NCBI GenBank assembly: GCA_022571845.1
Contig: JACZXB010000001.1
Location: forward strand, 1 to 64,000
Source of the DNA: Candidatus Zixiibacteriota bacterium
Lineage (GTDB): Bacteria; Zixibacteria; MSB-5A5; GN15; FEB-12
DNA: 64,000 bases
Direction of reading: 5' to 3'
Positions 1-39,428 of this stretch are shown piece by piece (position 1 is the stretch's first letter; each line of letters begins with the position of its first letter). A program made the translations under genes and the position numbers. The notes below the pieces were generated by a model. The model was not told the origin of the DNA. It searched no databases and saw nothing but the letters and a program-made list of their open reading frames with translations.

Positions 1-1234
1 TAACGCTTCTGTGTCGGTTTGCTGAGTTATGGTCTCCTCCTGCCACGACAGAATACCGGTCTGCGAAATTGTATTCACCGCCACCTACAGTTCCTCCCCC
101 GTAAGTTCCGGTGGAATTTTTGTTCCCGCCACAAATCAATCCTAGAATTTCAGCGACGTTGTGAGATCCCGAGAGAACATTACCATTATTGTTTGCTGTG
201 TTGTTGAATCCTCCTCCTATAACAGAATAGTTGCCGGTTACATTGCTTTCATAACCGCCCCCGATTACTGAATAGTCACCATCGATTTTATTATACATTC
301 CTCCTCCAATGCTGGACTTTTCACCGAGGATGAGATTATCGTTACCACCAGCAACCGTGTTATATCTGCCCCAAGACTGGTTGGAGACCCCCCCTCCGAC
401 CGTACTAAATTCGTCAACTGCAACGTTTGATTGACCACCGCTGATTACGCTATAATCACCGTATGCATTATTCCCGATACCACCGCTAACCGTACTATAT
501 TTGCCGTGTGCTCCGTTGGCCCAACCTCCGCTTACTGTTTGATAGGTCCCGTCAAGTTGCAATAATGAACCAGTTATGGATAGTGTACCCAGATTTACGG
601 CAGTGTGAGCACTATCACCACGTAATGAATTCCCGGCCTGTCCTCGAGATATTCCCCAATTGGCGTTTGTGTAAAGTACAGTATCGATGACCGACCAATG
701 TGAACTACTCGGTGCTTGCCACGTACCGACGCCTGCGGCATCCGACGTTAATACATCTCTAGAAACACCTCCTGAGAGTTGGATGCTCCCAACTTTTGCA
801 GTATCAGATACCGAGAGATTTCCTGCTATCTCGCCCCCTATTGCTCCATCTACAGTCGCAACTCGAAAGGCAAAAGGTACTGAGACTAATTGATTACGAG
901 GTGTGAGCGGTGGGTCAGCAGCTACTTGTATTTGAAGGAAGCGTACGGAATCGCTGAAATGACTCTCGTTCAGTGTAACTACTGATCCCAATAAGACATT
1001 GAAATTGCCAACTTCAACAACTACACCCATGTGGATTTCAGACCAGATTTGTGTTCCGTTAGTTTCTTGATCCCAAATGCTGAAAGTGACGTCAACGGTT
1101 CCGTTAACGGGATTATTCCCTGGCCCGGAAGCAGCCAAGAAGCCCTGATAGTGAATGAGTTGTGGGACTACGGCAAAAACTGAGCTTGCCATCACGCTAA
1201 TTACAACAATTATGTGTAGAAATGTTCGATACAT
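1..1234 (-). CDS. Secreted 'YQG' surface protein with YadA-like beta-roll repeats, partial (3' end off left edge)
   Basis: The minus-strand frame opens with ATG at 1234 behind a strong Shine-Dalgarno (AAGGAGG, about 6 nt away) and has no stop before the window edge, giving 411 residues so far. Residues 1-21 are a signal peptide ending SSVFA. Next comes the family N-terminal region (IHYQGFLAASG, about 28-125), which recurs in the genes at 4211-5515 and 6559-7584 and closes with SVPFAFR. From about residue 231 there are about 12 repeats of roughly 15 residues of the form YSxxSGGxxNxAxGD. These resemble the left-handed beta-roll heads of YadA-type or S74-tailed fibres. A C-terminal anchor or intramolecular chaperone would be expected beyond the edge. 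The role is inferred: an extracellular fibre or adhesin-like protein. No partner can be named. Confidence 0.8.
   Translation of the reverse strand, partial: MYRTFLHIIVVISVMASSVFAVVPQLIHYQGFLAASGPGNNPVNGTVDVTFSIWDQETNGTQIWSEIHMGVVVEVGNFNVLLGSVVTLNESHFSDSVRFLQIQVAADPPLTPRNQLVSVPFAFRVATVDGAIGGEIAGNLSVSDTAKVGSIQLSGGVSRDVLTSDAAGVGTWQAPSSSHWSVIDTVLYTNANWGISRGQAGNSLRGDSAHTAVNLGTLSITGSLLQLDGTYQTVSGGWANGAHGKYSTVSGGIGNNAYGDYSVISGGQSNVAVDEFSTVGGGVSNQSWGRYNTVAGGNDNLILGEKSSIGGGMYNKIDGDYSVIGGGYESNVTGNYSVIGGGFNNTANNNGNVLSGSHNVAEILGLICGGNKNSTGTYGGGTVGGGEYNFADRYSVVAGGDHNSANRHRSV
2..544 (-). repeat. Coding repeats: about 12 copies of a 15-residue beta-roll unit
   Basis: Degenerate tandem repeats of about 45 nt encode residues 231-411 of the left-edge protein. 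Typical units are YSTVSGGIGNNAYGD and YSVIGGGYESNVTGN. The protein periodicity is clear while the DNA copies have diverged, so this is a structural protein repeat and not a recent tandem expansion or a CRISPR array. Confidence 0.75.
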
Positions 1235-1502
1235 GGGAATCCTCCTTATGAAAAGTAAAATTTACTGATTATAGCAGAATATAAGCCATTAAGAGGATTT
1301 GTCCACCCATTTAGAGGGCGGGTTCCAGCACAAATTCACTACTAATCTAATATAGAATACTCTTTCGAGCTACCATGTACAATGACTATCATCATGACCA
1401 GGAAGAAGATTAAAAAAAGATGTTAAATATAACAAAACGAACCCATTTGCGCAGAGCGTCAAGAAACCGTAGTCAATTTACCTGCACGGGGCGACGTATT
1501 CC

Positions 1503-3587
1503 CTATGCCGCCGCTTCTTTTTCGGCCTTTGACATCTCGATTACTTTTAGGGCGGTGTCGTGGGGGACCTCTTCATAGTGCGAAAACTCCAGCGCATAAA
1601 TTCCCTGACCCTGTGTCATTGAACGGAGGTCGACCGAATACTGATACAATTCCGCCTGCGGCACCGAGGCTCTGATAATTTGGTTGCGGCCGTCGGGATC
1701 CATGCCGGCAATTTTGCCACGTCGCGATGACAAATCACCCATAACGTCGCCGGTGTTGTCATCGGGGACAGTCACTGTCAGATTATAAATCGGCTCAAGC
1801 AGAACCGGTTTACATTCCATAAAGCCCTTTTTGAAAGCCATCAAACCGGCAATTTTGAAGGCCATATCGGATGAATCAACATCATGGAACGAGCCATAGT
1901 ATAAGGCCACTTTGACGTCGACCACCTGCGAGCCGGCCAGTCCGCCATGCTGCATCGATTCGACCACGCCTTTTTCTACAGCCGGAACATACTTGACCGG
2001 TATAACACCGCCTTTGAGTTCGTTCAAGAACTCAAAACCAGAACCGCGGATGTTCGGTTCAATGCGAAGATGAACGTCACCATATTGCCCCCGTCCGCCG
2101 GACTGCTTTTTATGCTTGTACTGGGTTTCAGTTTTGCTTCGGATGGTTTCTCTATACGGAATTTTGGGGCGTACTAAGGCTACTTCGACACCATAGCGGG
2201 CTTTGAGCTTTTCCATCAGTACATCGATATGAGCAGAGCCTTGCGCGTACAATACCTGCTGCTGCAGGGCAGGGTCAGCGACAAGTTTGAAGGTGGGGTC
2301 TTCTTCGTGAAGTTTGTGAAGTCCGGTGGCAATCTTTTCTTCGTCACCTTTGGTTTTTGATTTTATGGCAGTATCCATGACCGGGTTGGGAAATTCGACT
2401 TCCGGGAACGTGACGGAGAAACCTGCGTCTGCCAGAGTATTGCCGGTGTGAGTGTTTTTGAGTTTTACTAAAACGCCGATATCACCGGCCGGTATAGATT
2501 GAACATCGATTCTGTTTTTTCCCTGAAAGGTGTAAGTCTGTGAAGCCCTTTCGCCGGAATTTTTCTGCTGATTTTTTAAATCCAGACCCGATTTAATGGT
2601 ACCTGAGTAGGCGCGGAAAAATGACAGCTCACCAAGGTGCCCTTCGGAGAACGTTTTGAAAATGAATGCCGAAGCTTTGGCCGATGCATCCGGTGCGACT
2701 TCTATTTCATCTTCTGAGCCGGTTTTGACAGCCTTGGCTGGCGGTAGCTGTGCCGGTGACGGTAGAAACTCGTTAATAAAATCGAGTAGAACTCTTATAC
2801 CAACATTCTTTGTGGCCGAACCAAATAAAACAGGATAGACTTTCATGCGGGCGATACCCAAAAGCAGACCTTTTTGAACGTCATCATTTTCGAGTGTGCC
2901 CTGTTCAAAGAATTTTTCCAAAAGTACGTCATCAGCCTCTGCGGCAACTTCGATTAAATTCTCGCGTTCTTTTATGGCTGCGTCTTTTAGGTCGGCCGGA
3001 ATATCTATTTCTGTACGTTTGCCATCGTTATCAAAGGTGTAGGCTTTCATATGCAGCAGGTCCACCAATCCTTTAAAACTGCTGCCTTCACCTATAGGGA
3101 GCTGCACCGCAACTGCTTGTTTACCAAAGGATTCTTTGATTGATTCAAGTGCGCTTTTCCAGTTGACACCTTCGGATTCCATCTTATTTATAAAGAAAAA
3201 ACGGGCAATTTGGAACGGCTCAATAGCTTTCCATTGCAAGTTAGTACCTACCTCGACTCCGGCAGCAGCATTTATCAAAACGCCGACAGCGTCAGAGACT
3301 CTGGCGCCAGACATCAGTTCACCTGTGAAATCCAGGTGACCGGGGCAGTCGATTAGATTAATTTTGCAGCCGTTCCATTCTACAGCCAGAAGTTTAAGAG
3401 TAATCGTAGTTTTTCTTTCAATTTCGCTGTCAGTGAAATCCAGAATGGAGGTACCTTCGTCTACTGAACCGATGCGGTTATTTATTCCGGTGTTAAATGC
3501 AATAGCATCACCCAGACTTGTTTTGCCGGTACCTCTTTGGCCAGCCAGGCATATATTTCGAATCTTATCAGTAGTGTATTGCTTCAC
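1503..3587 (-). CDS. Elongation factor G-like translational GTPase (EF-G paralogue)
   Basis: A 694-residue protein with the full EF-G domain order: GTPase, domain II, III, IV (about 450-600) and V. The start is GTG at 3587 with GGAGGT 8 nt upstream. The G1 loop is GQRGTGKTS (16-24) and G3 is DCPGH (80-84). The G4 motif is NKME (134-137) where translational GTPases normally have NKxD, so guanine recognition may be altered. This is the divergent EF-G-like (EF-G-2 type) subfamily, not the canonical fusA, which usually sits with rpsL/rpsG. The family acts on the ribosome in the cytoplasm; whether this copy drives translocation, recycling or something else cannot be told. It stands alone between surface-protein genes. 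Confidence 0.9.
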   Translation of the reverse strand: MKQYTTDKIRNICLAGQRGTGKTSLGDAIAFNTGINNRIGSVDEGTSILDFTDSEIERKTTITLKLLAVEWNGCKINLIDCPGHLDFTGELMSGARVSDAVGVLINAAAGVEVGTNLQWKAIEPFQIARFFFINKMESEGVNWKSALESIKESFGKQAVAVQLPIGEGSSFKGLVDLLHMKAYTFDNDGKRTEIDIPADLKDAAIKERENLIEVAAEADDVLLEKFFEQGTLENDDVQKGLLLGIARMKVYPVLFGSATKNVGIRVLLDFINEFLPSPAQLPPAKAVKTGSEDEIEVAPDASAKASAFIFKTFSEGHLGELSFFRAYSGTIKSGLDLKNQQKNSGERASQTYTFQGKNRIDVQSIPAGDIGVLVKLKNTHTGNTLADAGFSVTFPEVEFPNPVMDTAIKSKTKGDEEKIATGLHKLHEEDPTFKLVADPALQQQVLYAQGSAHIDVLMEKLKARYGVEVALVRPKIPYRETIRSKTETQYKHKKQSGGRGQYGDVHLRIEPNIRGSGFEFLNELKGGVIPVKYVPAVEKGVVESMQHGGLAGSQVVDVKVALYYGSFHDVDSSDMAFKIAGLMAFKKGFMECKPVLLEPIYNLTVTVPDDNTGDVMGDLSSRRGKIAGMDPDGRNQIIRASVPQAELYQYSVDLRSMTQGQGIYALEFSHYEEVPHDTALKVIEMSKAEKEAAA

Positions 3588-3753: not shown

Positions 3754-4218
3754 TCAGGGGCAGGCTACCGGAGAGTCACCGCCCCGAAAGATAAAATCTA
3801 TCATGAATAACAAATCATCGAAGCTTAGGGCAATGCCGTCACCATCCAAGTCGCCTTCGAACGGACAGATTGGGTCTGAGCCGCCGCGGAAGATAATATC
3901 GATAAAGATTGTCACATCGAGGGCGGTATTTGGCCTGCCGTCGGCATTAAGGTCGCCGGTAGTGCCAATACAACAGCTTCCTGAAAATGGCCCGGACCAG
4001 AATCCGGAGCCCAGTTTGTAGATTGTCGTGGTCGCCCTGCCTGTGGAGGCCTGTCCAATTGTCCCGCTCGACCTGTAAATCGAAGTAGTGCTTTTGCCGC
4101 CGCCTCCGGCAATTACACTCCGACCCACTTTGACAGAATTCTGTGCAAATGATTCGCTTTGCAGCATGAGCATGAATAGAATAATCAGATAGAAAACAAA
4201 TCGTGCCAACCTATTCAT
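3754..4218 (-). CDS. Small secreted protein with GFW motif and C-terminal dockerin-like repeats
   Basis: 154 residues from ATG at 4218. An in-frame ATG 20 codons further upstream (4278) lies inside the preceding gene and would bury the signal peptide, so 4218 is preferred. The start overlaps the stop of the upstream gene by 8 nt, which implies translational coupling. Residues 1-25 are a signal peptide. A Gly/Ser-rich segment follows, with VIAGGGG, GTIGQAS and ending YKLGSGFW, the same pattern as in the gene at 5679-6332. A CCIG linker then leads to two EF-hand-like dockerin repeats (GDLNADG and GDLDGDG calcium loops, each ending IFRGG). Probable exported partner or anchor of the upstream YQG protein; function not known. 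Confidence 0.8.
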   Translation of the reverse strand: MNRLARFVFYLIILFMLMLQSESFAQNSVKVGRSVIAGGGGKSTTSIYRSSGTIGQASTGRATTTIYKLGSGFWSGPFSGSCCIGTTGDLNADGRPNTALDVTIFIDIIFRGGSDPICPFEGDLDGDGIALSFDDLLFMIDFIFRGGDSPVACP

Positions 4219-5515
4219 CAGCGCCTCGGGAGTTTCCGTTAGCTGAGTTGCTGGATTGAGGCTTATCGCCCGGGTCATCGGCTACCGGCGTAATCGTGCC
4301 ATAGGAGGTCGGGAAGAAGATTGCTGTTAGAATTGGAAAAACGGCGCTGGCTTCTGCTGAATTCGAAGAGGCAGTAAACTTAGCTTCAAGTCTGAATGTT
4401 TGTGGTCCGGCTAAGAGGAAAAAAGTTCTTTGGGCAGTACAGTTGAAGCTAAATTGGCCGCTGCTTGGATAATTAGTGGCGCCAACTTTAGTGTATATTC
4501 CCGAGACTGTATCTCCGGTTGAGTTCACTATTATCTGCATATAGGCGAAATTTGAGCCAGTAGTGCTGTCTAAGCTGATTGTAGCACGACCCTGAACAAA
4601 AACGAATCCGGAGGCGGGAGTAACCATTGAAACTGTAGTCAAGTCAGTCATGGTAGATTTGCTCAAGGGGATTATGGTAGTTGCCCGACCTTGGGCTAAT
4701 CCCGGTTCATCTACTATATCTATGCTAAAGATTGAATTATTTATGATCTCAGGACCACCTACAGCATCGTTATCCATCTCAGAGAGACCGATTGCATTGG
4801 CGTCTATTTCAAGTGCTGTAACCGCGTTTGCAGCTATTTGCTGGGTGCCAATTGCACCAGGCTGGATGTGATCTGCAGTAACCCCATTCGTCGCAATTGA
4901 GATTGATATATCGCCGGAGTTTCCTCCGCCTGTGAGGCCGCTACCGGCTATAATTGAGGAGATATTTCCAACGCCGCTTTCATCTGGCGCAGCTACCCAG
5001 GCCGAACCGCTCCACTTTATGACCTGCCCGCTGTCGGCAGAGCTTTGCGTTAAAGACGATAATGATATTGAGTTAAGTGGTACACTTAAAGCTAGAGTTG
5101 CAGTGTCTGACAAGGCTGATTTGAAAGCAAATGGGGCCGAGGTCAGTTTTATCCGCGGACTCAGTTCAGACTCAGTACCGACGGTAATTCCTAAGAAAAG
5201 TGAACCGTTAGTAGAAAATATATCGCTTCCGATAGCTGGAGTAGGAGATTCACCCAAATTAGCCTCCAAAAGACCGCCTAAAACCAGATAGGTCTGGATA
5301 TTACTATTCCAGAGTTCATTGGCCGGGTCTGTGCTTAAGGAATCATTCCAGATTATGAAGCGGATAAAATAGGTATCGTCTAATATTGGTTCACCCAGCG
5401 TATCAGTAAGAGTACCCTGATATTTGAGAATACCTGGAACATCGGCCCTGCCTATAGTTATGGAAATAACAGATATGGCAACAGCCAAAAGCAATATGTG
5501 CTTGAAATTCTTCAT
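4211..5515 (-). CDS. Secreted 'YQG' family surface protein
   Basis: 434 residues. The signal peptide (about 1-24, ending GRA) is followed by the family start ILKYQGTLTDTLGEP and an N-terminal domain running to SAPFAFKSA. Next is a Ser/Ala/Ile-rich linker with ISSIIAGSGLTGGGNSGD, a motif common in tail-fibre-like proteins. The C-terminal third (about 290-410) is predicted beta-rich. There is no S74 chaperone tail and no dockerin. It lies upstream of, and overlaps, the small dockerin protein at 3754-4218, so the two are probably made together as a surface-display pair. It is paralogous to the left-edge gene and to 6559-7584. Function unknown beyond likely extracellular location. Confidence 0.8.
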   Translation of the reverse strand: MKNFKHILLLAVAISVISITIGRADVPGILKYQGTLTDTLGEPILDDTYFIRFIIWNDSLSTDPANELWNSNIQTYLVLGGLLEANLGESPTPAIGSDIFSTNGSLFLGITVGTESELSPRIKLTSAPFAFKSALSDTATLALSVPLNSISLSSLTQSSADSGQVIKWSGSAWVAAPDESGVGNISSIIAGSGLTGGGNSGDISISIATNGVTADHIQPGAIGTQQIAANAVTALEIDANAIGLSEMDNDAVGGPEIINNSIFSIDIVDEPGLAQGRATTIIPLSKSTMTDLTTVSMVTPASGFVFVQGRATISLDSTTGSNFAYMQIIVNSTGDTVSGIYTKVGATNYPSSGQFSFNCTAQRTFFLLAGPQTFRLEAKFTASSNSAEASAVFPILTAIFFPTSYGTITPVADDPGDKPQSSNSANGNSRGADE

Positions 5516-5678
5516 CTTTCTAATTCAATTCAATCTATCAAGATATTGAAATATCATAGATATAGAATCGGCAGTAATAAGTAGCTACTTTAAATATGCA
5601 AAAAAAGACGATTTTGTCAATAGGGAAAAGGAAGAACTGCCTTGAATTCTGACTTACTGTACAAATATTTTCCTATTA

Positions 5679-6332
5679 TCAGCACGGGCCCGGGGGGTCG
5701 CCGCCGCGGAAGATGAAATCGACCAGAAAAGTCAAATCGAGAATAGTCTGCGGGTCGCCGTCGGAATTTACATCTGCTTCTTCGTCACAGTCACCAGGAG
5801 GTCCGCCTCTAAAGATAAAGTCTACCAAGAAGGTAAGATCCAGTATGGTGGCATCATCACCATCGCCATTAATATCGCCTCTGATTCCGACACAACAGCC
5901 TCCGCCAACACCGGGCCAAAAGCCGGAGTTAAGGGTATAGTTTGTGGAAAAACCTTCTCCTACAGAGGTTTGGCCGGCAGTTCCGCCCAGAATGTAGTTA
6001 GTGGATGAGCCTGATCCTCCACCGGCAGCAATTACAAACCAGCTAATGTTGAAAACTGCTACTGCTGATGCAGATGTTTGGGGAGTTGATTGAGGCTGCA
6101 ACAAAATTGGTTCCGGAATGAGCGTAGAACTGGAGTTATCTCTGGTTGTGGCCTGCGGCTCTTGTTTGGTGTCTTGCTTTGTCGATGTAGATGAAGTCGT
6201 AGTTTGTTTTTGACTGACAACTTTTTTTGTGTCAATGTCTTCTGAAGTTTTCTTAGCTGCACCAAAACTGATTGAAGCAAAAAGTAAGAAAACTGAAAAA
6301 GCAATCGTTACTCTCGAAATGGTTGACCGCAT
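5679..6332 (-). CDS. Secreted GFW/dockerin-repeat protein
   Basis: 217 residues. The signal peptide (about 1-25) is followed by a charged and Thr/Ser/Gln-rich low-complexity stretch (about 26-85). Then comes the segment FVIAAGGGSGSS, GTAGQTSVG and YTLNSGFW seen in the gene at 3754-4218. The C-terminus has two dockerin-like repeats with DINGDGDD and DVNSDGD calcium loops, each followed by ILDLTFLVDFIFRGG. It sits downstream of the YQG gene at 6559-7584 in the same order as the 4211/3754 pair, so the two-gene cassette is duplicated. Exported; function unknown. Confidence 0.8.
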   Translation of the reverse strand: MRSTISRVTIAFSVFLLFASISFGAAKKTSEDIDTKKVVSQKQTTTSSTSTKQDTKQEPQATTRDNSSSTLIPEPILLQPQSTPQTSASAVAVFNISWFVIAAGGGSGSSTNYILGGTAGQTSVGEGFSTNYTLNSGFWPGVGGGCCVGIRGDINGDGDDATILDLTFLVDFIFRGGPPGDCDEEADVNSDGDPQTILDLTFLVDFIFRGGDPPGPC

Positions 6333-6401
6333 ATATTACCTCCTGAGAATTATCATAATCTGCTCAAAAATGAGCGATATGTCAATATATTCGTGTCTTC
6401 A

Positions 6402-6590
6402 TTACTTGCTGTCTAAAAGCTCCTTTAGCATTTTCTCGAGTTTTCTTATTTCTACTCTGGATTCAGCCTGAACCATTTGAATTAGCTCTTTAAGCTCTTT
6501 GTTTTCCCAATATAAGGGTTTGATTGAGATCCTTCTTTCGCTTTCGAGAACGACTTCATCACGGACTCGTAGAGAAAAAGATACCGTCAA
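6402..6590 (-). pseudogene. Out-of-frame coiled-coil tail after the 6559-7584 gene (probable frameshifted C-terminus)
   Basis: Just past the stop of the YQG gene a different minus frame continues for about 60 residues. It has a clear heptad, charged coiled-coil character (ENKELKELIQ, then IRKLEKMLKELLDSK) and ends at 6402. The upstream part of this frame, inside the neighbouring gene, does not look like protein. The switch falls near TATCTTTTTCTC, a short T run where one-base slippage or a sequencing error is plausible. The tail resembles the coiled coil that ends many S74-type fibre proteins. It may be a lost C-terminus, an assembly error, or a decayed remnant. Confidence 0.45.
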
Positions 6591-7584
6591 GGAAAACGAA
6601 TTCATTAGAAGTCGATGCGAATTGCGCAATGATTTCACCTGACTGAAGTATGTCAACCCTTCGAGTTTGTGCCTGTGCGAACCCCAACGAATTTTGTGGT
6701 TTGAACCCCGCCGGCAGTATTGCCATGATTGCACCGGCGGCAATGGTCGCGTGATCGGTTTTATGTATAAGCCCCCTGAGATAGACGATATCCCCAATTT
6801 TTCGGTATTCACAGATTTGAAAGTCTCCACCGTGTGAATCTACGTAGTTATTATACCCTGAGGCTAACGGAAGAGAAGTCCACGGAGTGGAGCCTATTAT
6901 ATTTCCGCTGACCGTCAGGTCACCTGTAATTTTGATATTTCCAACTACATCGAGCTTTTCAGTCGGAGTTGTGGTGCCGATTCCTACAGAATCACCTGAA
7001 GCATCAAGTCTGACAGCTGTGCCATCGTCGGTCCAGCCGCTTGCGCCTCCGCCGTGAGAGTGGCCGGTAAGAGAAAAATCTTCAGAGCTAAAGCCGTCAA
7101 GAGAGTCAGCTACGCGTGTAGAATCTGCATAAATCGCAATTTCAGCAATGGCCGCTAATACTGAAAAGGCAGCCGTATCCGCAAAGTCGGCTGTGTCGGC
7201 ATGTAGAGAATTGAAGGAATATGGCACTGACACGAGTTCAATTCTTGGTGAAATTTGCGGATCGGCCCCGACCGTAATACCAAGATAAAGTACAGAGCCG
7301 CCAAAAAGTGTAACATCAAGGAGTGAAAACGAACCAAGCAAAACACTGAACAGTCCCCCTGTGACAACTACGCCCGCATGGCCTTCCACCCAGATAGGAG
7401 TCAAGCCAACAGCGTTCTCATAGATGCCGAATGTTATATCTACGGTCGTATCCAGACTAGCACCAGTTGAATCTGTTAAGATTCCCTGATAATTAATTAG
7501 CTGCGGTGCAGCTGCTCTTGTTTGGTTTGACAGCGCAAGTACGAAAATAACTGCGCATGCTAAAATTAGCGTTACTCTTCGCAT
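6559..7584 (-). CDS. Secreted 'YQG' family surface protein, tail-fibre-like
   Basis: 341 residues in the open frame. A signal peptide (1-24, ending TRAA) is followed by the family motif LINYQGILTDSTGAS and an N-terminal domain closing with SVPYSFNSLHADTADFADT. A middle segment reads VGIGTTTPTEKLDVVGN, typical of bacterial and phage fibre proteins. The C-terminal globular part (about 235-340) carries EYRKIGDIVYLRGLI and ends FVFLDGIFFSTSP. The end may be shifted, because a coiled-coil tail continues in another frame down to 6402. It is the first gene of the second surface cassette, with the dockerin protein at 5679-6332 downstream. Likely extracellular; role unknown. Confidence 0.75.
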   Translation of the reverse strand: MRRVTLILACAVIFVLALSNQTRAAAPQLINYQGILTDSTGASLDTTVDITFGIYENAVGLTPIWVEGHAGVVVTGGLFSVLLGSFSLLDVTLFGGSVLYLGITVGADPQISPRIELVSVPYSFNSLHADTADFADTAAFSVLAAIAEIAIYADSTRVADSLDGFSSEDFSLTGHSHGGGASGWTDDGTAVRLDASGDSVGIGTTTPTEKLDVVGNIKITGDLTVSGNIIGSTPWTSLPLASGYNNYVDSHGGDFQICEYRKIGDIVYLRGLIHKTDHATIAAGAIMAILPAGFKPQNSLGFAQAQTRRVDILQSGEIIAQFASTSNEFVFLDGIFFSTSP

Positions 7585-7752
7585 GGAATTTCTCCTGATT
7601 AAAATGTATAAATTGTACTAATTATGCTGCAGATATATTTCTTTGGTGTTGCTCAAAGACGCTGCAGACTACCTATCCACTTAGAGAATATAATCAAAAC
7701 GGCCTATTTGGCAATACTTTTGGTCAAAAGGGGCAAAAATATATGTCCCTGT

Positions 7753-12432: not shown

Positions 12433-15165
12433 TCAATTTGGGCAAACCGGAGCAGGTCCGCCACGAAAAATGAAATCCACGAGATAAGTCAGCTCCAGAA
12501 TTCCCACAAACTCACCATCGCCATTGACATCGGCAGCAGGTATAAATGGTGGCGGAGGTCCGCCTCTGAAAACGAAATCTACTAAGTATGTCAGCTCAAT
12601 AATACCTACAAATTCGCCGTCAAAGTTTACATCACCACAAATATACGGCAGCGAAATATTGATATTATCTACAAACCAGTCATCAAAAGGTCCAGCTGTA
12701 CCAGTCGAGCGAATCCTCAACCTGAAAGCCTTGTGACAGGCGTCATTCGGCAGATCATGAGCCACTTGTATAAATTCAGTCATATCCGTGTCTGAGCCTA
12801 AATACTGCTGCAAGAGCTGCCAGTTTGCTGAAGAATCCAGATATTCAAAGTATAGATTATCTCCAGTCTCAGTGGAATTACCACCTCCGGTTCGTTGATA
12901 ATCATAGCGTAGAACCGAGTTGCACTGTCCATCCAAATCAATAACTTGAGATACAATGGTGTCGGCACCCACCGGACCTCCGTTGAGATTTAAAGCATAT
13001 GGCGGGGACGGTATATTTAAGCCGATACTGTTTATTTCAATGTTAAGAAAACTAACCCACTTAGCGGGATCAATTGTTGTTGTCGGAAACTCTTCTTCGA
13101 ATGGTAAAGTGAGCGGGACGCCGAGCGAGGTAGTGATCAAAGAAGACTGGCCAAAAATAGCCGGATTCGATCCGGAAACCACATCAATAATCGCAGTATC
13201 GGATTCACCAAAAAACGAGTTTGAGATTACAACACTTACTCGAAAAGTAAAGCTCGAATCTTCCAATAGTACCGAGCTTGAATTTATGATGAAGAAGCCG
13301 GCCGAATCCCAGATTGTGGTGTTCCAAAAGTTTCCGGATGAAGTTAATGCGTATTGGTCCGAGTACAGGCCGTTGTTTGTAATCGTAAGTTGATACCAGA
13401 CAGTATCATCGACAACAGCGCTTGCTGAATCGAATAGAGGGTCAAGAGTCATTGCATAGTCAATTACTTGAAAAGTGACAATATCTGTTGTGTCGGCTGA
13501 ACCGTTGGCATCAATCGCGTACAGATAATAATCAATAATTGTGCCCGGCGATTGGGCGGGGATGAAAGCATGAAATTCATCGGGCTGTCCGGTGGGGGTT
13601 AACGTATCTATTTGCCAGATCGCGTCCAGATTATAGTACAACAATTGATCCCCTGCCGATAGAGTAGTATCGGACTTAATCTCACATATTACTTCATAAG
13701 GATTTACTGAATCCTTTGTATCTTCCAGCGGAGTGTGCGTGATTGCTGTCCCGCAAAGCAACTGTCCCATTTCGTTCAACGAATTGAAAATATTCAGCCT
13801 GCCACCAGAAACTGTTATTCCGTTTAGAGATGGAATTGGGTCTGTGCCGTCAAGAATTGTCTGAAGTACATCCAGAGCATAAGTTGCCGGATCGTTCTTG
13901 TAGGCGCTAATAAAACCGGCACAGGCGCCTGAATACATCAGAGCCACTGCCCCGGTAACTTGTGGGGTAGCCATTGAAGTGCCGGTTAGATATCCATATG
14001 AATTTCCTGAGGTTGTAGAAAAGATAGTAGTACCCGGCGCTCCCAGATCAATTGTTGTAGCGCCGTAAGCAGCGCCAGTGTTTTTGACATCAGAATTGGT
14101 AGTGTTGGTGACAGAAAGCAAGTAGTCACTATCGCAAGCTGTCGGTACATCCCCCTGCACATCAATATCGATATTTAAATTTGCGGTTGCGGCAGCGCTG
14201 ATTATTCCAGCTTGTCCCATAGAATCATACATCGCACACCAGATAGGAAAATTGTCGGGATTGCCGAAATCTACTCCGAATGATGAATTGGTAGAGACTA
14301 CGAAGGCACCTTCGGCGCCGTCAGTCTCGTTGAATCTTTTGCGCATTTCAAAAACATAGCCGTAGGCGGCAACTACAGTCGCCTCCGAACCGCTTGAGCC
14401 GGCAATCGGCATAACTTTAACATTCCAATTGACGCCGCTGACTCCTATTCCATTGTTTCCGGCAGCAGCACAAATGCCAGTAACGTGAGTACCATGGTTT
14501 CCTCCGGGAATGTTGCCGCTATTGTTGTAAGCGTTCCAGCCATGGTAATCATCAATATAACCGTTGCCGTCGTCATCGATGCCATTGCCGGGAATCTCTA
14601 ATTCGTTTTTCCAGAATAGAAGGTCGTTGTGATTCAAATCAAAGCCACCATCTATAACGGCTATAACAATTTCGTCTCCCTGGACGGTGGTATCACCTGT
14701 AGCGATATCCCAAGCTTCGGGTGCATCAATATCGGCGTCAACTACCCCTCCTAACTGGGCGGTATTATGTAATGCCCATTGGTTTCCAAAATTTGGATCA
14801 TCAGGAAAAGTCGACCTGAGAGATACTTCGTGATTAAACTGGGCGATCGCTACTTCGTTGTGATTAGAAACAGATTCAAGCAGAGCTTCGTCGCTTGTCG
14901 ATTTAGCGTCGTATTCATAAAGCCAGATATTGAGCCTTCGGGAGAGCAGCCTTTTGGGCTTTAGCTTTTGTGACTGAAAATCTTCTGATAGCAGATTGGG
15001 TTGTGAATCTTCAAAAAACTGAATAATAAGTTCACCCGGAAAATAGGTAGAATTGTCTTTCGCATCAGAGCTTGAAGATGAAGAAATAGACCAGGCAGCT
15101 AATAAAAACAGAATGAGCCGAATAGTATCTTTAGTCTTTAAGTAGAAATTTTTAAAAATGTTCAT
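12433..15165 (-). CDS. Subtilisin-like (S8) serine protease with C-terminal dockerin-like repeats
   Basis: 910 residues: signal peptide or anchor (about 14-30), a propeptide-like region with PGELIIQF (about 40-115), then the S8 catalytic domain. The triad is visible: Asp172 in AVIDGGFD, His224 in GGNHGTHVTG, and Ser in GTSMATPQVTG. Beta-rich domains follow (about 470-840), including a jelly-roll-like segment. The C-terminus is two dockerin-like repeats (GDVNFDGE and DVNGDGE loops, each with LTYLVDF.FRGGP). It should be exported and act outside the cell, possibly processing neighbouring surface proteins that carry the same tag; that link is inference. A plausible promoter lies at 15254-15281. 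Confidence 0.9.
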   Translation of the reverse strand: MNIFKNFYLKTKDTIRLILFLLAAWSISSSSSSDAKDNSTYFPGELIIQFFEDSQPNLLSEDFQSQKLKPKRLLSRRLNIWLYEYDAKSTSDEALLESVSNHNEVAIAQFNHEVSLRSTFPDDPNFGNQWALHNTAQLGGVVDADIDAPEAWDIATGDTTVQGDEIVIAVIDGGFDLNHNDLLFWKNELEIPGNGIDDDGNGYIDDYHGWNAYNNSGNIPGGNHGTHVTGICAAAGNNGIGVSGVNWNVKVMPIAGSSGSEATVVAAYGYVFEMRKRFNETDGAEGAFVVSTNSSFGVDFGNPDNFPIWCAMYDSMGQAGIISAAATANLNIDIDVQGDVPTACDSDYLLSVTNTTNSDVKNTGAAYGATTIDLGAPGTTIFSTTSGNSYGYLTGTSMATPQVTGAVALMYSGACAGFISAYKNDPATYALDVLQTILDGTDPIPSLNGITVSGGRLNIFNSLNEMGQLLCGTAITHTPLEDTKDSVNPYEVICEIKSDTTLSAGDQLLYYNLDAIWQIDTLTPTGQPDEFHAFIPAQSPGTIIDYYLYAIDANGSADTTDIVTFQVIDYAMTLDPLFDSASAVVDDTVWYQLTITNNGLYSDQYALTSSGNFWNTTIWDSAGFFIINSSSVLLEDSSFTFRVSVVISNSFFGESDTAIIDVVSGSNPAIFGQSSLITTSLGVPLTLPFEEEFPTTTIDPAKWVSFLNIEINSIGLNIPSPPYALNLNGGPVGADTIVSQVIDLDGQCNSVLRYDYQRTGGGNSTETGDNLYFEYLDSSANWQLLQQYLGSDTDMTEFIQVAHDLPNDACHKAFRLRIRSTGTAGPFDDWFVDNINISLPYICGDVNFDGEFVGIIELTYLVDFVFRGGPPPPFIPAADVNGDGEFVGILELTYLVDFIFRGGPAPVCPN

Positions 15166-15980: not shown

Positions 15981-18537
15981 TCAATAACAGGGTCCCGGTG
16001 ATGGAGCGCCGCGGAAAATATCATCAATAATATATACAAGGTCGATGGCTGTAGCAGATCGTCCATCGAAATTCAAATCTGCTTCTATGGGACATGGAGG
16101 CGCCGGTCCGCCTCTGAATATATAGTCAATCAGATAAACTAAGTCAAAAAAACTATTGTCATCTCCGTTACCATCGATATCTCCACGAATACCTATGCAA
16201 CAGGTGTCTTCGAAAGATGGTGGACTGAAGTTCAGTACTTCTTTCAGACTGGTGAGGGAAGACAGCGGGTCATCGCCCTGGCCGACAGCAATTTTGATAA
16301 TTATCTGCTGAGTGTCATTTGGAGCAAAGTCGAACGGTCCAAATGACACAAACATTCTCCTGTCAGAAGAATTAAAATCTAAGTCCCCGGTTCCTGTTAC
16401 CGGGTCACCGGGAAGCATATATCTGGTGCCGTTAGGAAGGGGTTCACCAAAATCCCAAGGACTAAACCCATTCATATACTGATAGGTCCAGCGAAAGTTT
16501 TGAGGATCATCGGCACCTATCCACCTCATGAATGAAGTCATAGGCGGTCCCTCAATCAGTTTCCCTCCAAAAGCCGGAACTCGTGTGCCATAATCTCTAT
16601 CTGTGCCATCATTGTAGCAGAAGAAAATGTCGTTAAGCGTATCACAGCCAACGAAATCATCTCCGGCGTTGCCCAGGTCAGGGTCAAACCATAGACTTAT
16701 AAAGAACCCATTGTAAGTGTTCCCGCTTTTATTGATGAGTTTATATTTGGAATAAACTGATAAATCCTCAGCGCCGGCGGTTACTGTAGGAGGAACGGCA
16801 GCCGTAAAAGCGAAAGTGTCGGGAGTCAGGAACTTGGGTGTTCTCAGTCTGAAAATCGTGCCGGGTTCTGGCAGGCTCTGATTAAACGGCGGAGCGACTC
16901 CTCCATTCCAATTTATCAGGACAGTTCTGGCTATGACTTCTTCATCAGAATAATCATAAGTACCTGCCAGAATCTCTGCTGCTCTAGTTTGATAACCAAT
17001 ATCGCCAGGAGTAGAATCAACAGGATAGAGCCAGTAAATCCAGTCTGTGAATGGACCATCGTCACCACCTGATGCGGAGTGCTCTCCGCCAGCAGGACCG
17101 AATACCGAATCTAATGCGCAACCCCAGGCTTCGAGGTTATAAGTATAGTCATTTCCAAAATCAAGTTGCCAGACAACCATTCTGACATCGTCGCTGGCAT
17201 TGTTTGGAGTCCCTTTCCCAGTGTTCCAAAGTTCAAACGGCACCCATTGCACTTTCATCCTGAAAGGCTCTTATGGCGATACTTCCGCCACCCAACGAGC
17301 TATCGTAAATGCCGGATGAATTGGTGTCGCCGGTGAAGCGCATTTCGTAGTCGTATATGCCAACATCCTCGGCATTGTCATTTCTCAGAGATCTTGAGAG
17401 AAATGCGGCGTAGCTGCCTCGAGTACCGCCATTACAGGTACCCCCGTTGTCGCCAGTATGTAATGCCCAAATTCCCGGACCGACCTGCTGACTGCTGTCC
17501 GGAGTAATTGACGGGAAACCCTGCGAGGGAAGAGCTGCGCCAGCCGGCGGGTCAAGCGGACCGCTTGAGTTCGCCACAACTTCGAACGCTTCAAAAGCAG
17601 TAGCAAAGCCCGATACTTGTATTAGAAAGCCATCGGTGACTGTAGTATGAAGCTTGCCAAAGTTGGTTTGATTGGCCAAAACAGTATCATTCAGAGTTAT
17701 GTTTATGAGATGCCAGACCGGACCGAGAGTCGAATCATTATCGGTGCTAACCTCATAATCGTGTCCGGTAAGAAGAGTTGCGTCGACAATCTCAACTGTT
17801 ACATTACCATCACTTGCACCTATTTGGCTGACGACAAAATGAGTCGGACTTGGCAAAACATATATGCCCTCACCAGTATCAGCCCAGACAGTATGCTGAA
17901 CTTCTATTCCAAGGCCGACCGCTGAGCTGGCATCGTTTAAGTGAACGGCGCTATTGGCGTCGTTATAAACGCTCCATAGTGTCTGTTTACCTGTCAGCAG
18001 TGGATTACCCAGGCTGTCTACCGGTGCGCCCATAGATGAGGGCCAGTCCAGATAATCTTGATTCGGGTTTGATGACATGCTGTCGCTGTAAATTTTGTAG
18101 ACTCGATACAGAGAATCTATATCAGCATCAGCTATAAATGTGCCTCCAACCATTGGTCCCGGCCAGTAGTCATTCGAGTATTGTGCTACTGACACCAGTG
18201 TATCACCAGTGGACGAATTTACGCCTGCAAACCATATTCCGGCAGCAAAGCAAACGGTATTAGTGGCAGTTCCATTTTGAATGTTTTCAAGGCCATAGTA
18301 GGGATATTAGAAGCCATCACTCTTGCTCAGCATACCTGCTCTGTCCCATGAAAACGAACCGACGTTAGTGACAAACATGAGGACGTTGTTAGCGTCAATA
18401 TATTTATCTTGTTGAATGATTTGTCTGCCCGAAGAGGCTAAAGGGAGATCATTTTTATCAGGAGTAGGCAGAGCATAAGCAGTGGCTATAATCAGAGCCA
18501 TGAAAATAAGCGAATATTTCAGGCTTTTCAATTTCAC
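15981..18537 (-). pseudogene. Broken dockerin-tagged secreted protein (paralogue of 18646-21510)
   Basis: The minus strand holds a copy of the neighbouring 954-residue gene cut by two lesions. From ATG at 18537 the frame gives a signal peptide and VLMFVTNVGSF, then stops at TAA (18307-18309) exactly where the intact copy has a Tyr codon (DGFYYP). The same frame resumes at once and runs to about 17250 (IAIRAFQDE). A +1/-2 shift there moves the rest (VQWVPFELW onward) into another frame, open to 15981. The C-terminus still encodes two dockerin-like repeats (IRGDIDGNGDD and ADLNFDGR loops, FRGGPAPP). One nonsense and one frameshift in a gene whose neighbours are intact point to real decay; sequencing error is the alternative. 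Confidence 0.85.
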
Positions 18538-18645: not shown

Positions 18646-21510
18646 TTAGCTGCCTCCCCTGAAGATATGGTCCACGAGAACTAAAATGTCCAGAACTGTA
18701 ACTGAACCGTCATAATTTGCGTCTCCTGCTTCTATGGGGTCAGGCAGTGGGCCGCCCCGGAAAATATAGTCTACCAAGAAAACCAGGTCGGCAATGTCAA
18801 GTCGCCCATTTCTATTTATATCGCCGCCCCGGTGGCCTATTACCTCAATTGAAGAATTTACTACAAACGCTGAAGAATCTGCAAAAACGCCGCTGACGGA
18901 ATAGTCTTGCATTGTACTACCCCAGAGCAAGCCATACGTTTCCAGAAATTCCTTGGCAGGAAAGACTATTTGCCAGACTGGTCCGCTATGTCCCGGGTGG
19001 GAGGACAATAAGGTTGTCGAAACTGGAGCGATAGAATCATTAATCATTATGCTGGAGCCGTTGATTCCGTCAACATTTAATGCGGTAGACCAACCTAAGA
19101 AAACAGTGTCCATAATGGGCTCAATGCTAAATTTGAAAACAATACGTTGCGGATTAGGCTTGAGATAGGAGATTAACTCAGGCTCTACGGGAGGTACAGA
19201 ATTCAGTATTTCTTTCAATTCTGTAATTGAAGACAGATGGCTGTCTCCATGGCCAACAGCCAATTTGAATACAATTTCCTGCGTGTCTCCGGGTGCAAAT
19301 GTCAGAGGACCAAATGTTGCCATCATTCTTCTGTCAGAAGAATTAAAGTCAATATCACCAATTCCTGAAACCGGATCACCCGGAACGGCATATCTGCTGC
19401 CGTTGGCCAGCGGAATACCTCCCTGTGAGGCGTCAAGTCCATTCATATATTGATAAGTCCACTGATAACTTAGCGGGTCTGTCCCGTTTCTGTATTTCAT
19501 AAAGGAATACATAGGCGGGCCACTAATTAATTTTCCTCCGAAGGCAGGCGGAGCAGAGCCATAGTCTGAATCGGCGCCGTCATTGTAGCAAAAGAATATA
19601 TTATCCAAAGTATCACAGCCAATCAAATCGTCACCTGCCCACCCAAGGTCCGGGTCAAACCAGAGGCTGATAAAGAAATTGTTATATGTATTGTCGCTCT
19701 TATTAATCAGCTTGTACTTGGAATATATAGAAACAGCTTCGGGGCCGATTAAGACAGTCGGTGGGGGAGTAGCTCTAAATTCAAAAGTATCTATTGGTAT
19801 CTCGTTGGGTGTTCTTAGTCTGAAAACGGTTCCCGGCTCTGGAAGTTTTTGATTGAACGGCGGCTCCGTTCCACCATTCCAGTTTATGAGCACAGTTCGT
19901 GCCATGACTTCCTCATCAATAGAGCCATCATAGGTGCCTGCCATCATTTCTGCTGCACTTTGCTGATAGCCTTGATCGCCCCAGGTGGTATCAAATGGAA
20001 GAACCCAGTATATCCAGTCTGTATAAGGGTCGTTGTTACTTCCAGAGGCAGAGTGTTCACCCGAACCACCAAAAGAGACATCGTTTACGCAGCCCCATGA
20101 TTCTAAATTATAAACTGAATCTTCGCCAAAATCGAGTTGCCATACTACCATCCTGATATCGTCGGTAGGATCATCGGGAGTACCAATTCCTATTCTCCAT
20201 AACTCAAACGGAACCCAGGTAACCAAAGCATCCTGAAATCTTCTGAAAGCAAAGCTGCCGCCGCCGAGACTGATGTCATAATCGCCCGATGGAACAGTAT
20301 CGCCGGTGAACCTCATTTCATAATCCCACAATCCGATATCGATGCTATTATCTCCTCGTAGAACCCGGGTCAGAAAAGCCTCATAGCTGCCACGATTCCC
20401 CCCGCCACAGCTGCCGCCATTGTCTCCAGTGTGAAAGGCCCAGTGCCCGGCACCAACCTGCTGAGCGTCATCCGGCCGCAGGGACGGAAAGCCTTGGAAA
20501 TCAAGCGCCCCGCCAGACGGAGGTACAATTGGGCCTGCTCCGTTGGCAACAACTTCAAATGATACAAAATTAGCATCGGGGTTGGAAACCAGTACCAGAA
20601 AGCCATCGGTAACTATCGTATTATCACCGTTAAAAGTAGTCTGGTTATATAGAACTGTGTCACCTGTTGAAGTGTTAAAGAGGTGCCAAACTGCTCCCAG
20701 GCTTGAGTCCTTCTCAGTGGTCACTATATAGTCAAAATCTGTCATGGCCGAAGGATCGATTATTCTAACTTCTACCAAAATCGAAGTAGTACCGAGCTGA
20801 AGGACAGAGATTCCAATCGGGTGAGGGAGGGTATCATCACCAATTTGGTCGCTGGCCCAGGTTGTATGCTGTATTTCTATACCGAGCCCAACGTTTGTAC
20901 TGGCATCGTTTGTATGATGCGACGGGTTGGCATCGTTATAGACGGACCAAAGCATTTGGTCGCCCAGCATCACAGGCTCTCCTGCCGAATCGACCGGTGC
21001 CCCGTCTGCTACCGGCCAATCAATGAAATCCTGATTGGGGTTACTTGCTAGGCTGTCTTTATACAGCTTATAAACTCTATCAGCTGGATCGGAACCAGAG
21101 CCGGGATCAAAAGTGCCTCCGACCATTGGTCCAGGATAATAATCATCAGAATACTCAGCCACAGTAACCAGAGTGTCCCCGGTTGAAGCATTGATACCTG
21201 CAATCCATATTCCGGCTGCAAAACAAACTGTATTAGTAGCCAAGCCGTCATAAATATCGTTGAGGCTCAGAAAGGGATAATAAAAGCCATCGTTTTTGCC
21301 AAGCATTCCGCCCTGGTCATAGGCAAACGAACCTTTATTAGTGACAAACATCAGAACTTTGTTAGCATCTATCCAGGTCTGAGTGTCGTAAATTTTTTCG
21401 TTTGAGTTATTTTGTTCCATCGCGTTTTGTCCGGTCGGAGGAAGAGAATTGGTCGAAAATGGAAGAGCTATCAAAAGCACGAGAGCATTGACTAAGCATC
21501 TTATATTCAC
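18646..21510 (-). CDS. Large secreted protein with C-terminal dockerin-like repeats
   Basis: 954 residues with an N-terminal signal peptide (about 1-22). A region reading VCFAAGIWIAGINASTGDTLVTVAEYS (two parts) is of a kind found in large secreted proteins of FCB-group bacteria. The middle is rich in Trp, Gly and Asp with no recognised catalytic motif. Near the end are a beta-sandwich-like stretch (about 790-880) and two dockerin-like repeats (GDINRNGRLDIADLVFLVDY and GDANYDGSVTVLDILVLVDH), each followed by IFRGG. A tandem paralogue at 15981-18537 is broken. Exported; function unknown. A promoter overlapped by an inverted repeat lies just upstream. Confidence 0.8.
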   Translation of the reverse strand: MNIRCLVNALVLLIALPFSTNSLPPTGQNAMEQNNSNEKIYDTQTWIDANKVLMFVTNKGSFAYDQGGMLGKNDGFYYPFLSLNDIYDGLATNTVCFAAGIWIAGINASTGDTLVTVAEYSDDYYPGPMVGGTFDPGSGSDPADRVYKLYKDSLASNPNQDFIDWPVADGAPVDSAGEPVMLGDQMLWSVYNDANPSHHTNDASTNVGLGIEIQHTTWASDQIGDDTLPHPIGISVLQLGTTSILVEVRIIDPSAMTDFDYIVTTEKDSSLGAVWHLFNTSTGDTVLYNQTTFNGDNTIVTDGFLVLVSNPDANFVSFEVVANGAGPIVPPSGGALDFQGFPSLRPDDAQQVGAGHWAFHTGDNGGSCGGGNRGSYEAFLTRVLRGDNSIDIGLWDYEMRFTGDTVPSGDYDISLGGGSFAFRRFQDALVTWVPFELWRIGIGTPDDPTDDIRMVVWQLDFGEDSVYNLESWGCVNDVSFGGSGEHSASGSNNDPYTDWIYWVLPFDTTWGDQGYQQSAAEMMAGTYDGSIDEEVMARTVLINWNGGTEPPFNQKLPEPGTVFRLRTPNEIPIDTFEFRATPPPTVLIGPEAVSIYSKYKLINKSDNTYNNFFISLWFDPDLGWAGDDLIGCDTLDNIFFCYNDGADSDYGSAPPAFGGKLISGPPMYSFMKYRNGTDPLSYQWTYQYMNGLDASQGGIPLANGSRYAVPGDPVSGIGDIDFNSSDRRMMATFGPLTFAPGDTQEIVFKLAVGHGDSHLSSITELKEILNSVPPVEPELISYLKPNPQRIVFKFSIEPIMDTVFLGWSTALNVDGINGSSIMINDSIAPVSTTLLSSHPGHSGPVWQIVFPAKEFLETYGLLWGSTMQDYSVSGVFADSSAFVVNSSIEVIGHRGGDINRNGRLDIADLVFLVDYIFRGGPLPDPIEAGDANYDGSVTVLDILVLVDHIFRGGS

Positions 21511-35045: not shown

Positions 35046-35074
35046 TTGACACTCAAATTAAAGGTGTCTATATT
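35046..35074 (+). promoter_or_regulatory. Consensus sigma-70 promoter giving a probable leaderless transcript
   Basis: TTGACA (35046-35051) and TATATT (35069-35074) with a 17-nt spacer. The expected start site falls at about 35081, at the ATG of the next gene (35082), which has no Shine-Dalgarno. Confidence 0.7.
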
Positions 35075-35081
35075 TAAAATT

Positions 35082-36476
35082 ATGAAACGATTAGTCTTGA
35101 TGACTATTTTCGTCCTCTTTGCTTTCGTACAACTCGGTTTATATCAAGAGGCTTTCGGGCAGAGCAGCGCAATCTACCTTAGCAATTTTGAATCCGGCTA
35201 CGGTACCTCTACTGATACGGTAGGTACCGGCAGAAAAATTGTCTGGACGATGGCTATGCGAAATAACAGCGGCGAAACGATGATTGGTCACACCAACGGC
35301 TTTGGCATTTATTCCCCTTCGGGTGCTTCCTGGACTCCTCCCGTCATAGATACGCTCGATATTGCCCCAAGTACCGGTTTCGGCTGGTCTGACAGATTGG
35401 ATCTTATTGTTCAGTTAGTACATGCAACAACAGGCTCAGGAGTTGATACAGTCGCTATAGGAGGTGCCGCTATTTGGGGGCCGGGCTTTGAAGATGGCTT
35501 TGACGCCGATGCGTTTACAATAACGATTCCCCTACCTGGTATAGATTCCATTTTTGATGGCGGTACAATTTGTATTGATTCCACCGCATATCAAGGAGGA
35601 ATCAATCAATGGATTTGGGCCACCGAATTCGGCGAAATAATAGTTCCAGATTGGAGTGGCCCGCACTGCTACACTATTGTTTCAACAGGAAATAATGCGC
35701 CTACAATAACTTCATGTGTGGCAAGTCTTGATTTTGATCATTGTCCACTTGCTCAGTACTTGTTTTTTGCCATTGACCCTGAAAACGATACTCCAATCGT
35801 ATATACATTGCTCAGCGGGCCTGGTTCAATCGATTCCCTGTCAGGTCTCTGGAGTTATCAGCCGTCAATAGCCGATGTTGGGGCAGCTCTATCTATTGAA
35901 GTAGTAGCCAATGACCCGACCGGATCGAATCTAAGCGCATACCCTTGTATTACCGCACTAAATTTTACCAATATTGCACCTATTTTAACGGTCGGCTGTA
36001 ACAGCACTGTTTCAATTTCCGCGGGCAGCACGGCAGAAATAGATTTTGACGCTGATGGTGGAGACTGTGATCCATTGAGCTATTTTGTGAGTTCGGTCAG
36101 TCCCGCTCCGTTTGGGTCTTATAGCATTAATAGTTCTACCGGACTCTTAACGTTCAGCAGCGATACTGTAAATGACAATGGTAATACATACTCCTTTACT
36201 ATCGGTGTAACAGATAATATTGTTATTGCCTATTGCAGTGCCGATGTTGATGTCTCTTGTTGTCTGGGAATAGCCGGCGACGTAAATAATGACGGTGATG
36301 ATGCTACAATATTGGATTTGACTTATTTGGTTGATTTTATTTTTCGTGCGGGACCGTCGGCAGTTTGTGATGATGAGGCCGACGTGAACAGTGACGATAA
36401 TCCCTCAAACATCTTAGACCTTACCTATTTGGTCGATTTCATTTTCAGAGGCGGACCGGCACCAAATCCGTGTTAA
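35082..36476 (+). CDS. Secreted beta-domain protein with C-terminal dockerin-like repeats
   Basis: About 464 residues from ATG at 35082. An earlier in-frame TTG (35046) is the -35 hexamer of the promoter, so it cannot be the start of this transcript. Signal peptide about 1-27 (ending EAFGQ). An N-terminal beta region (about 28-215) is followed by two cadherin/Ig-like domains (NNAPTITSC..., then NIAPILTVGC... with DNGNTYSFTIGVTDN). After SCCLGIAGDV come two dockerin-like repeats (NNDGDD and NSDDN loops, each with ILDLTYLVDFIFR). Exported and probably displayed on the surface; function unknown. Confidence 0.8.
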   Translation: MKRLVLMTIFVLFAFVQLGLYQEAFGQSSAIYLSNFESGYGTSTDTVGTGRKIVWTMAMRNNSGETMIGHTNGFGIYSPSGASWTPPVIDTLDIAPSTGFGWSDRLDLIVQLVHATTGSGVDTVAIGGAAIWGPGFEDGFDADAFTITIPLPGIDSIFDGGTICIDSTAYQGGINQWIWATEFGEIIVPDWSGPHCYTIVSTGNNAPTITSCVASLDFDHCPLAQYLFFAIDPENDTPIVYTLLSGPGSIDSLSGLWSYQPSIADVGAALSIEVVANDPTGSNLSAYPCITALNFTNIAPILTVGCNSTVSISAGSTAEIDFDADGGDCDPLSYFVSSVSPAPFGSYSINSSTGLLTFSSDTVNDNGNTYSFTIGVTDNIVIAYCSADVDVSCCLGIAGDVNNDGDDATILDLTYLVDFIFRAGPSAVCDDEADVNSDDNPSNILDLTYLVDFIFRGGPAPNPC

Positions 36477-37718: not shown

Positions 37719-38019
37719 GCAACGTTTTTTGCAGAAAACACTTGACAGTCGGGAGCTAACTATTCACGTTAACTTATATTCGCTGTGGATCTTCAGGGCA
37801 TCGTAAAATCAACAGTCAGCGGAAGTTAAGCAAGGACGACTTAACGCTCGGGGCAGGGACAGCAATCCCGAAGTTTTACTGAGAAGGAAATTTTCGTGAT
37901 GTATGGTAATTTGCAGAAAAGAGTAAGTTTTGACTTGGACGGTTGCCCAAATTAGCGCAAGGGCAAAAAATAAAGCTAATGACCTAAATTCGACCAAGGC
38001 AGGGTGGGCCTATTTTCGG

Positions 38020-38574
38020 ATGTCAAATTACAAAGCCTTAAATTTCGGGATTTTCCTCATAGCCTTGGCAGCGCTTGGCGTCTTTTTCCTGCCGGCAGTT
38101 GCTGGCGGAGAAGAAGGGACTATCCCGGCAACAGTTCAAATCAGGACAGTGCTCACCCTCACCAGGACAGAAGACCTTAACTTTGGTCAGATCCGTTCGG
38201 GGGATGAAGACGGCACGGTAACTGTCACCCCCTTGAACGAACGTTTTGCTTCCGAGGGTATAATTTTACGTGCCTTAACAAACTTCAGCCGAGCCGAGTT
38301 CATAATAACCGGCGATCCTGATGCTTTTTACAACATCACGCCGGTGCTTGATTTCGCTCTGCACGACCAAGGTGAAAATCCAATTCCCGGCGAAACCATT
38401 TTGCAGGTTACCAACCTGTTAAGTTACAGTACTACTGTTGGCGCCGTGACATTGGTTGGTCAGTTTGACCCTAACGGCGTCGATTCCGTCTATGTGGGAG
38501 GGACGCTGCTGGTACCGGCAGGCGCTAAGTTCGGGAAATACGGAGGAGAAGTTACTCTTACTTTTAACTACTAG
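38020..38574 (+). CDS. DUF4402 secreted protein (probable fimbrial subunit)
   Basis: About 184 residues from ATG at 38020; an in-frame upstream ATG 30 codons earlier would leave no N-terminal signal. Signal peptide about 1-28. The mature part is a DUF4402 domain: LTRTEDLNFGQIRSGDEDG, a central beta region with RALTNFSRAEFIITGDPDAFY (two parts), and the end VYVGGTLLVPAGAKFGKYGG followed by EVTLTFNY. DUF4402 proteins are Ig-like and accompany PapD-type chaperones. The gene is first in a cluster with a second small secreted protein, a chaperone and an usher-like barrel, so it is probably a pilus subunit. Confidence 0.8.
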   Translation: MSNYKALNFGIFLIALAALGVFFLPAVAGGEEGTIPATVQIRTVLTLTRTEDLNFGQIRSGDEDGTVTVTPLNERFASEGIILRALTNFSRAEFIITGDPDAFYNITPVLDFALHDQGENPIPGETILQVTNLLSYSTTVGAVTLVGQFDPNGVDSVYVGGTLLVPAGAKFGKYGGEVTLTFNY

Positions 38575-38683
38575 ATAAAGCCGTTTAAATAAAGAGAATT
38601 GTCAAATGAGAATTGAAAACACTTATCAGGAAAGGAGATAATTGCCTATGCTATCAATTCCCGTAGGGGGGGATTTTGATTAG

Positions 38684-38700
38684 GCTCCTTATTTAGGAGC
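38684..38700 (+). other. Hairpin between the two subunit genes
   Basis: A perfect 6-bp stem, GCTCCT/AGGAGC with a 5-nt loop, about 40 nt upstream of the second subunit gene. No T run follows, so processing, pausing or differential expression is more likely than termination. Confidence 0.45.
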
Positions 38701-38738
38701 AGGATATAATATTTTAACTTTATTTGGAGAATTAAAAA

Positions 38739-39275: not shown

Positions 39276-39428
39276 CCGAGAGTTAAATATTGGTTGATTT
39301 TAGCGTTGTTGACTGATAAATATGTGTTAAAATAAGCGGTCGGCCCACAGACTTTTTCCGGATATTTTATTCAGGTTAAAGCTGTGGGTTAGGGTCGCAC
39401 TTTGAAAAACGCTGTTTTTTGAAAGAGA

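Follow-up and report, generated by a model that had tools for sequence, protein, structure and literature searches.

In Bdellovibrio bacteriovorus, prey is recognised by mosaic adhesive trimer (MAT) fibres, which are secreted proteins built from a single constant N-domain and varied C-terminal tips, among them Peptidase_S74 (S74) and phage-like folds (PMC10769870). The surface element bound by the MAT N-domain awaits identification, and no clear structural relative of this domain was found by the same authors (PMC10769870). Beta-roll heads and S74 chaperone tips are also present in trimeric autotransporters and phage tail fibres (UspA1/YadA-like heads, Peptidase_S74). Cellulosomes and the Cloacimonadota system use paired dockerins with the type I fold and carry polymer-degrading enzymes on a scaffoldin, and in Cloacimonadota surface display was proposed to rely on a cohesin scaffold that ends in a T9SS-type domain (PMC8542988).

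The window analysed here, a stretch of 64,000 nucleotides whose left end is base 1 of contig C1, was from a Zixibacteriota genome of 2.75 Mb in 21 contigs. Two gene pairs were found in it, in which a secreted YQG-type fibre protein (A) was followed by a smaller secreted protein (B). Like MATs, the A proteins were secreted and joined a single constant N-domain, which matched the NCBI family Bdello_MAT_N, to C-terminal tips of diverse kinds, S74 and phage-like folds among them; the A1 shaft matched solved MATs over short stretches. They differed from MATs in that the family match was below cut-off, most of them were shorter and a dedicated partner gene followed A. Beta-roll heads and S74 tips occurred on A as in trimeric autotransporters, but in A the place of the barrel was taken by the constant N-domain together with B, and no autotransporter barrel was found with the A proteins. 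Type I-fold dockerin pairs, and cohesins that bear a T9SS C-terminal domain by which they would attach to the surface of the producing cell, were shared with cellulosomes and the Cloacimonadota system, whereas the cargo would here be an adhesin-like fibre held via a small adaptor instead of an enzyme on a scaffoldin. A further resemblance was that of the B core to residues 30-78 of the CPR pilus protein PamT (NF058579), although this match was far below the cut-off and PamT has no dockerin. Within the literature searched, there was no paper on PamT, which was compared by its model only, nor any on dockerins in Zixibacteria. This work computed the pairing of the genes, their domain make-up, the turnover of the tips, the co-variation of A and B, and the presence of SprA and of proteins joining a cohesin to a T9SS sorting domain.

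Gene arrangement in the window

Both pairs of a YQG gene and a small secreted gene were located where the first-pass annotation had placed them, all on the minus strand (Table 1). The core VIAxGGG..GQxS..SGFW and two dockerin-type repeats, which it had also described, were present in B1 as well as in B2, with 41% identity between the two over their length. The linker of B1 was disordered and rich in S/T/K/Q. The third YQG gene noticed at the left edge was recovered as well (A3), and was incomplete at contig base 1; its beta-roll repeats were similar to the heads of trimeric adhesins, and it matched Bdello_MAT_N with an E of 3.1e-7. In the whole genome there were 6 A genes versus 2 B genes.

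Table 1. Features of the A-B pairs, in window positions
Feature	Position	Strand	Description
A1	6559-7584	-	secreted YQG-type fibre protein, 341 aa
A1 N-domain	~7228-7584	-	conserved; followed by a meander/fibre segment
A1 tip	~6562-6937	-	phage-tail-like; matches phage tail families
Old A gene scar	6384-6526	-	leftover 3' end of an S74-tipped A, out of frame past the A1 stop
B1	5679-6332	-	secreted partner, 217 aa; signal peptide, linker, core, dockerin pair
B1 core GGG..GQ..GFW	5910-6047	-	
A2	4211-5515	-	secreted YQG-type fibre protein, 434 aa; middle part like a tail fibre (phrog_892 tail fibre, 1e-8)
B2	3754-4218	-	secreted partner; ORF open from 4278 (3754-4278); dockerin pair
B2 core	3991-4128	-	
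A2 stop/B2 start overlap	4211-4218	-	8 nt, ATGAATAG
A3	2-1234	-	third YQG-type gene, truncated by contig edge; beta-roll repeats

Overlapping reading frames had been proposed for one of the pairs, and A2 and B2 did share 8 nt. Judged from the sequence, the start of B2 is more likely the ATG at 4218, which lies within the stop context of A2, GATGAATAGG. The frame overlap was also present in the orthologous loci L037 and L042 of two sister genomes, where the A2 orthologues had 79-85% identity, and it is consistent with translational coupling of the two genes.

Other features of the window were observed as well. One was a pilus-like cluster (37930-43195, +) composed of a DUF4402 protein, a PapD-type chaperone and a 909-aa SdrD_B-containing protein, which looked usher-like and had no Pfam usher match. 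Another was a recombinase-like ORF (51897-53615, +), which ran into a tRNA-Leu (53564-53649, -), an arrangement like that at the border of an integrated element.

Pairing of A and B genes

In 20 related genomes, 40 B genes were collected with a profile of the B core, and the N-domain profile gave about 108 places for A, of which 102 were used after short fragments were dropped. For 28/40 B genes, an A gene started on the same strand no more than 5 kb upstream, while random placement would give 0.19, so the two families did not occur mainly apart as seen from B. Several of the other 12 B genes were near contig ends or had an A gene downstream. A scan of genome contigs with the B core only (four-sequence profile) gave 16 loci, 13 of them with A directly upstream. 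The names of B-core relatives were nearly all Candidatus Zixiibacteriota, and in a sample of this phylum B was present in 97/118 genomes; among 20 regions of the sample selected for B, A was upstream in 16, with some ends touching or overlapping.

The loci read comprised 94 different B genes in all, of which 75 had sufficient upstream sequence. A was found within 300 bp upstream in 56/75 of these informative genes, a total which takes in loci that had been chosen for A, and five B genes overlapped A by 4 nt. Runs of as many as four or five A genes also occurred, with a single B located at the end or close to it, and many A genes had no B nearby. The constant pairing claimed by the first-pass annotation was thus near-constant when seen from B, and not when seen from A, since A outnumbers B. 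Both this excess of A and the absence of a nearby A at about a quarter of the B genes (L077, L081, L083, L085 and others) were counted against the adaptor role of B discussed below.

No natural A-B fusion was found among the loci read. In L151 a frame of 931 aa (401-3193, +) fused a dockerin protein, not A, with an entire B, and another A-B pair adjoined it. The dockerin frame of the solitary B of L081 (6017-6343, +), which had no A nearby, was lost soon after the core, and the gene resembled a decaying copy. A Zixibacteria-like A-B pair was also carried by L097, a 5.2-kb contig of a Neptuniibacter MAG, by mis-binning or gene transfer.

Domains of the A proteins and turnover of their tips

The N-terminal ~75 residues of A1 matched Bdello_MAT_N with an E of 9e-9 and 35.3 bits, against a cut-off of 60 bits. 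Matches to this family were found in 19/20 genomes, with E down to 1e-10 and at best 42.4 bits, and the cut-off was reached by no A protein, neither A1 nor its relatives in the 20 genomes. A distant homology between the A N-domain and the Bdellovibrio MAT domain is thus detectable at the level of sequence, below the family threshold. Residues 188-225 of A1 matched 8ol4 (MAT Bd2439; E 1.8e-4), and a weaker stretch matched 8on4 (MAT Bd1334), both matches being short. For the N-domain, a fold rich in beta structure was predicted with confidence (mean pLDDT 89.7), and no clear relative of this fold was found in the PDB, where the best Foldseek E was 0.024 and the best VIA Z was 6.8, at 3.5 A over 83 residues.

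The C-terminal tips were of several types, including the Peptidase_S74 chaperone, UspA1/beta-roll repeats, tail-fibre-like and coiled-coil tips. Over 45 A-B pairs the mean identity was 38% for the A N-domain and 16% for the A tips. In make-up the A proteins are thus MAT-like, with a constant N-domain and exchangeable tips, although they are below the cut-off of the NCBI family, a shortfall which was also counted against the scheme proposed below.

At the A1 locus the tip was different in a sister genome. The A1 orthologue in G001 had 786 aa and an S74 tip (Peptidase_S74, 5.6e-11), and was followed by a second A gene (447 aa) and then by B1. At the DNA level, window 6937-7732 aligned with the 5' part of this orthologue, the middle was replaced, and the stretch listed as a scar in Table 1 aligned with the last 143 bases of the orthologue (L037 7732-7874) at 78% identity. 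When translated, the out-of-frame remnant after the A1 stop matched residues 746-786 of that orthologue with 68% identity. In another sister genome, G002, the locus was flanked by the same amidohydrolase gene, but no A1 gene stood between it and B1, an absence which is less certain because the G002 assembly is fragmented. B1 was retained in the window genome, G001 and G002 with 75-77% identity. The alignments indicate that the A1 tip is exchanged between sister genomes while B1 stays.

The B proteins and their possible anchor

A signal-peptide-like start was present in 89/94 B genes, followed by a variable linker, the core and the tail. The tail fitted a dockerin-pair profile in 90/94, although the dockerins of B1 and B2 scored below the Pfam cut-off. 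The AlphaFold model of the B dockerin tail (pLDDT ~94) agreed with cellulosomal type I dockerins, with a TM-score of 0.7-0.8 and an rmsd of ~2 A, so the dockerin-like nature first assigned to the repeats from the sequence was borne out by the predicted fold. In L048, L155 and L071 the tail was a T9SS sorting domain in place of the dockerins.

The B core alone gave a fold of low confidence (pLDDT ~45-55), which was counted against the adaptor role; poor folding of the lone core in the model would also fit a core that folds on a partner. It was above cut-off in no Pfam, NCBIfam or PHROGs family. Its matches to residues 30-78 of the 241 in PamT were 1.2e-7 (L048), 1.4e-4 (L050) and 3.6e-4 (L077); at 31.4 bits or less, against a cut-off of 240 bits and in the core region only, they do not make B a member of that family.

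Cohesins were found in 20/20 relatives, and a strongly conserved protein of ~290 aa, consisting of a signal peptide, a cohesin and a T9SS sorting domain, in 18/20; that of the window genome was at G000:C4:73151-73726. The sorting domain (TIGR04183/PF18962) was above cut-off in the cohesin proteins and in the variant B genes. SprA, the T9SS translocon, was present in 19/20 genomes, including the window genome.

At least 35 dockerin matches versus few cohesins were observed in the window genome. The conserved cohesin may serve many cargos because dockerins are this frequent, and for the same reason a dockerin by itself is no marker of a fibre anchor. Other secreted proteins of the window ended in dockerin-like pairs (12433-15165, -; 18646-21510, -; 35046-36476, +), one of them subtilase-like. 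The overlapping ORFs 15981-17258 and 17233-18195 (-) matched consecutive parts of the 954-aa protein of 18646-21510 with 67% and 60% identity, and 15981-18195 (-) is a frameshifted paralogue of it.

Co-variation of A and B

Over 45 adjacent A-B pairs, the distances of each protein part were correlated with those of the other parts. The A N-domain and the B core gave an r of 0.48, and 0/1000 shuffles were as high; an earlier run on 52 pairs had given 0.46. On the same 45 pairs, r was 0.25 between the A N-domain and the B dockerin, 0.17 between the N-domain and its own A tip, and 0.00 between the A tip and the B core. The partial r of N-domain and core given the dockerin was 0.43, while that of N-domain and dockerin given the core was 0.07. 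Shared ancestry (species relatedness) and alignment noise can partly account for the co-variation of N-domain and core. The B dockerin serves as an ancestry control because it is in the same gene as the B core, though an imperfect one, since its own alignment noise could lower its r.

Role of the B proteins

B is proposed here as the surface adaptor of a mosaic, trimeric A fibre, and our confidence in this is evenly divided. A would be a MAT-like surface fibre, with its constant N-domain close to the cell and an exchangeable C-terminal tip binding the target, and B would clip it to the cell surface via the dockerin. Starting from the cell, the chain would be composed of T9SS-anchored cohesin, dockerin, B core, A N-domain and variable tip. 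One B may serve several A genes in a row, and recombination would swap the A tips, with B and the A N-domain retained. In a few lineages B would bear the T9SS sorting domain itself, with no cohesin step. The trimerisation of A, the contacts of A with B and of dockerin with cohesin, and the adhesive role are what we infer in this scheme. The first-pass annotation had suggested a displayed protein with a dedicated anchor or partner, and this gains support from the phylum-wide pairing, from B being kept while A changes and from the co-variation of N-domain and core; it also fits the two kinds of B tail and the cohesin-T9SS proteins in the genomes. The word dedicated would then mean one B for each cluster of A genes, because up to four or five A genes may precede one B.

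The place of B directly 3' of A, with translation apparently coupled at some loci, would suit an assembly factor or cap as well, that is, either a secreted chaperone or else a plug sitting at the base or tip of the fibre, with the dockerin just holding B at the surface. The S74 chaperone tips of many A proteins imply that folding helpers belong to the system, but B also accompanied A proteins which were already S74-tipped (L050, L061) and did not co-vary with the A tip, and such a role is considered rather unlikely. It is still a little less likely that A and B are separate surface proteins which share only operon and regulation and make no contact. Solitary B genes, the many A genes without a nearby B and the numerous dockerin proteins would agree with that; against it, the A N-domain and the B core co-varied more with each other than either did with the rest of its partner, and the order of A then B was kept across the phylum.

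The repeated weak matches to PamT could also mean that A-B is a pilus-tip adhesin, in which the B core would serve as the module that binds pili, with A carried on a type IV-like pilus. This is regarded as very unlikely, for the matches were far below the 240-bit cut-off, the B tail was a dockerin pair or a T9SS domain, and no pilin feature was seen.

If B is indeed the surface adaptor, docking by cohesin and dockerin would be carried over from enzymes to adhesins, and a reason would be given for the high number of dockerins in such genomes. With its conserved core, B is a small and testable candidate for the surface partner still missing for MAT-type fibres. A wider idea, considered rather improbable, is that MAT-type fibres in general have their missing base partner in the B core, a clip to whichever anchor a lineage has, such as dockerin-cohesin, T9SS or perhaps a pilus; if true, several phyla would recognise prey or host by means of a common fibre base and adaptor.
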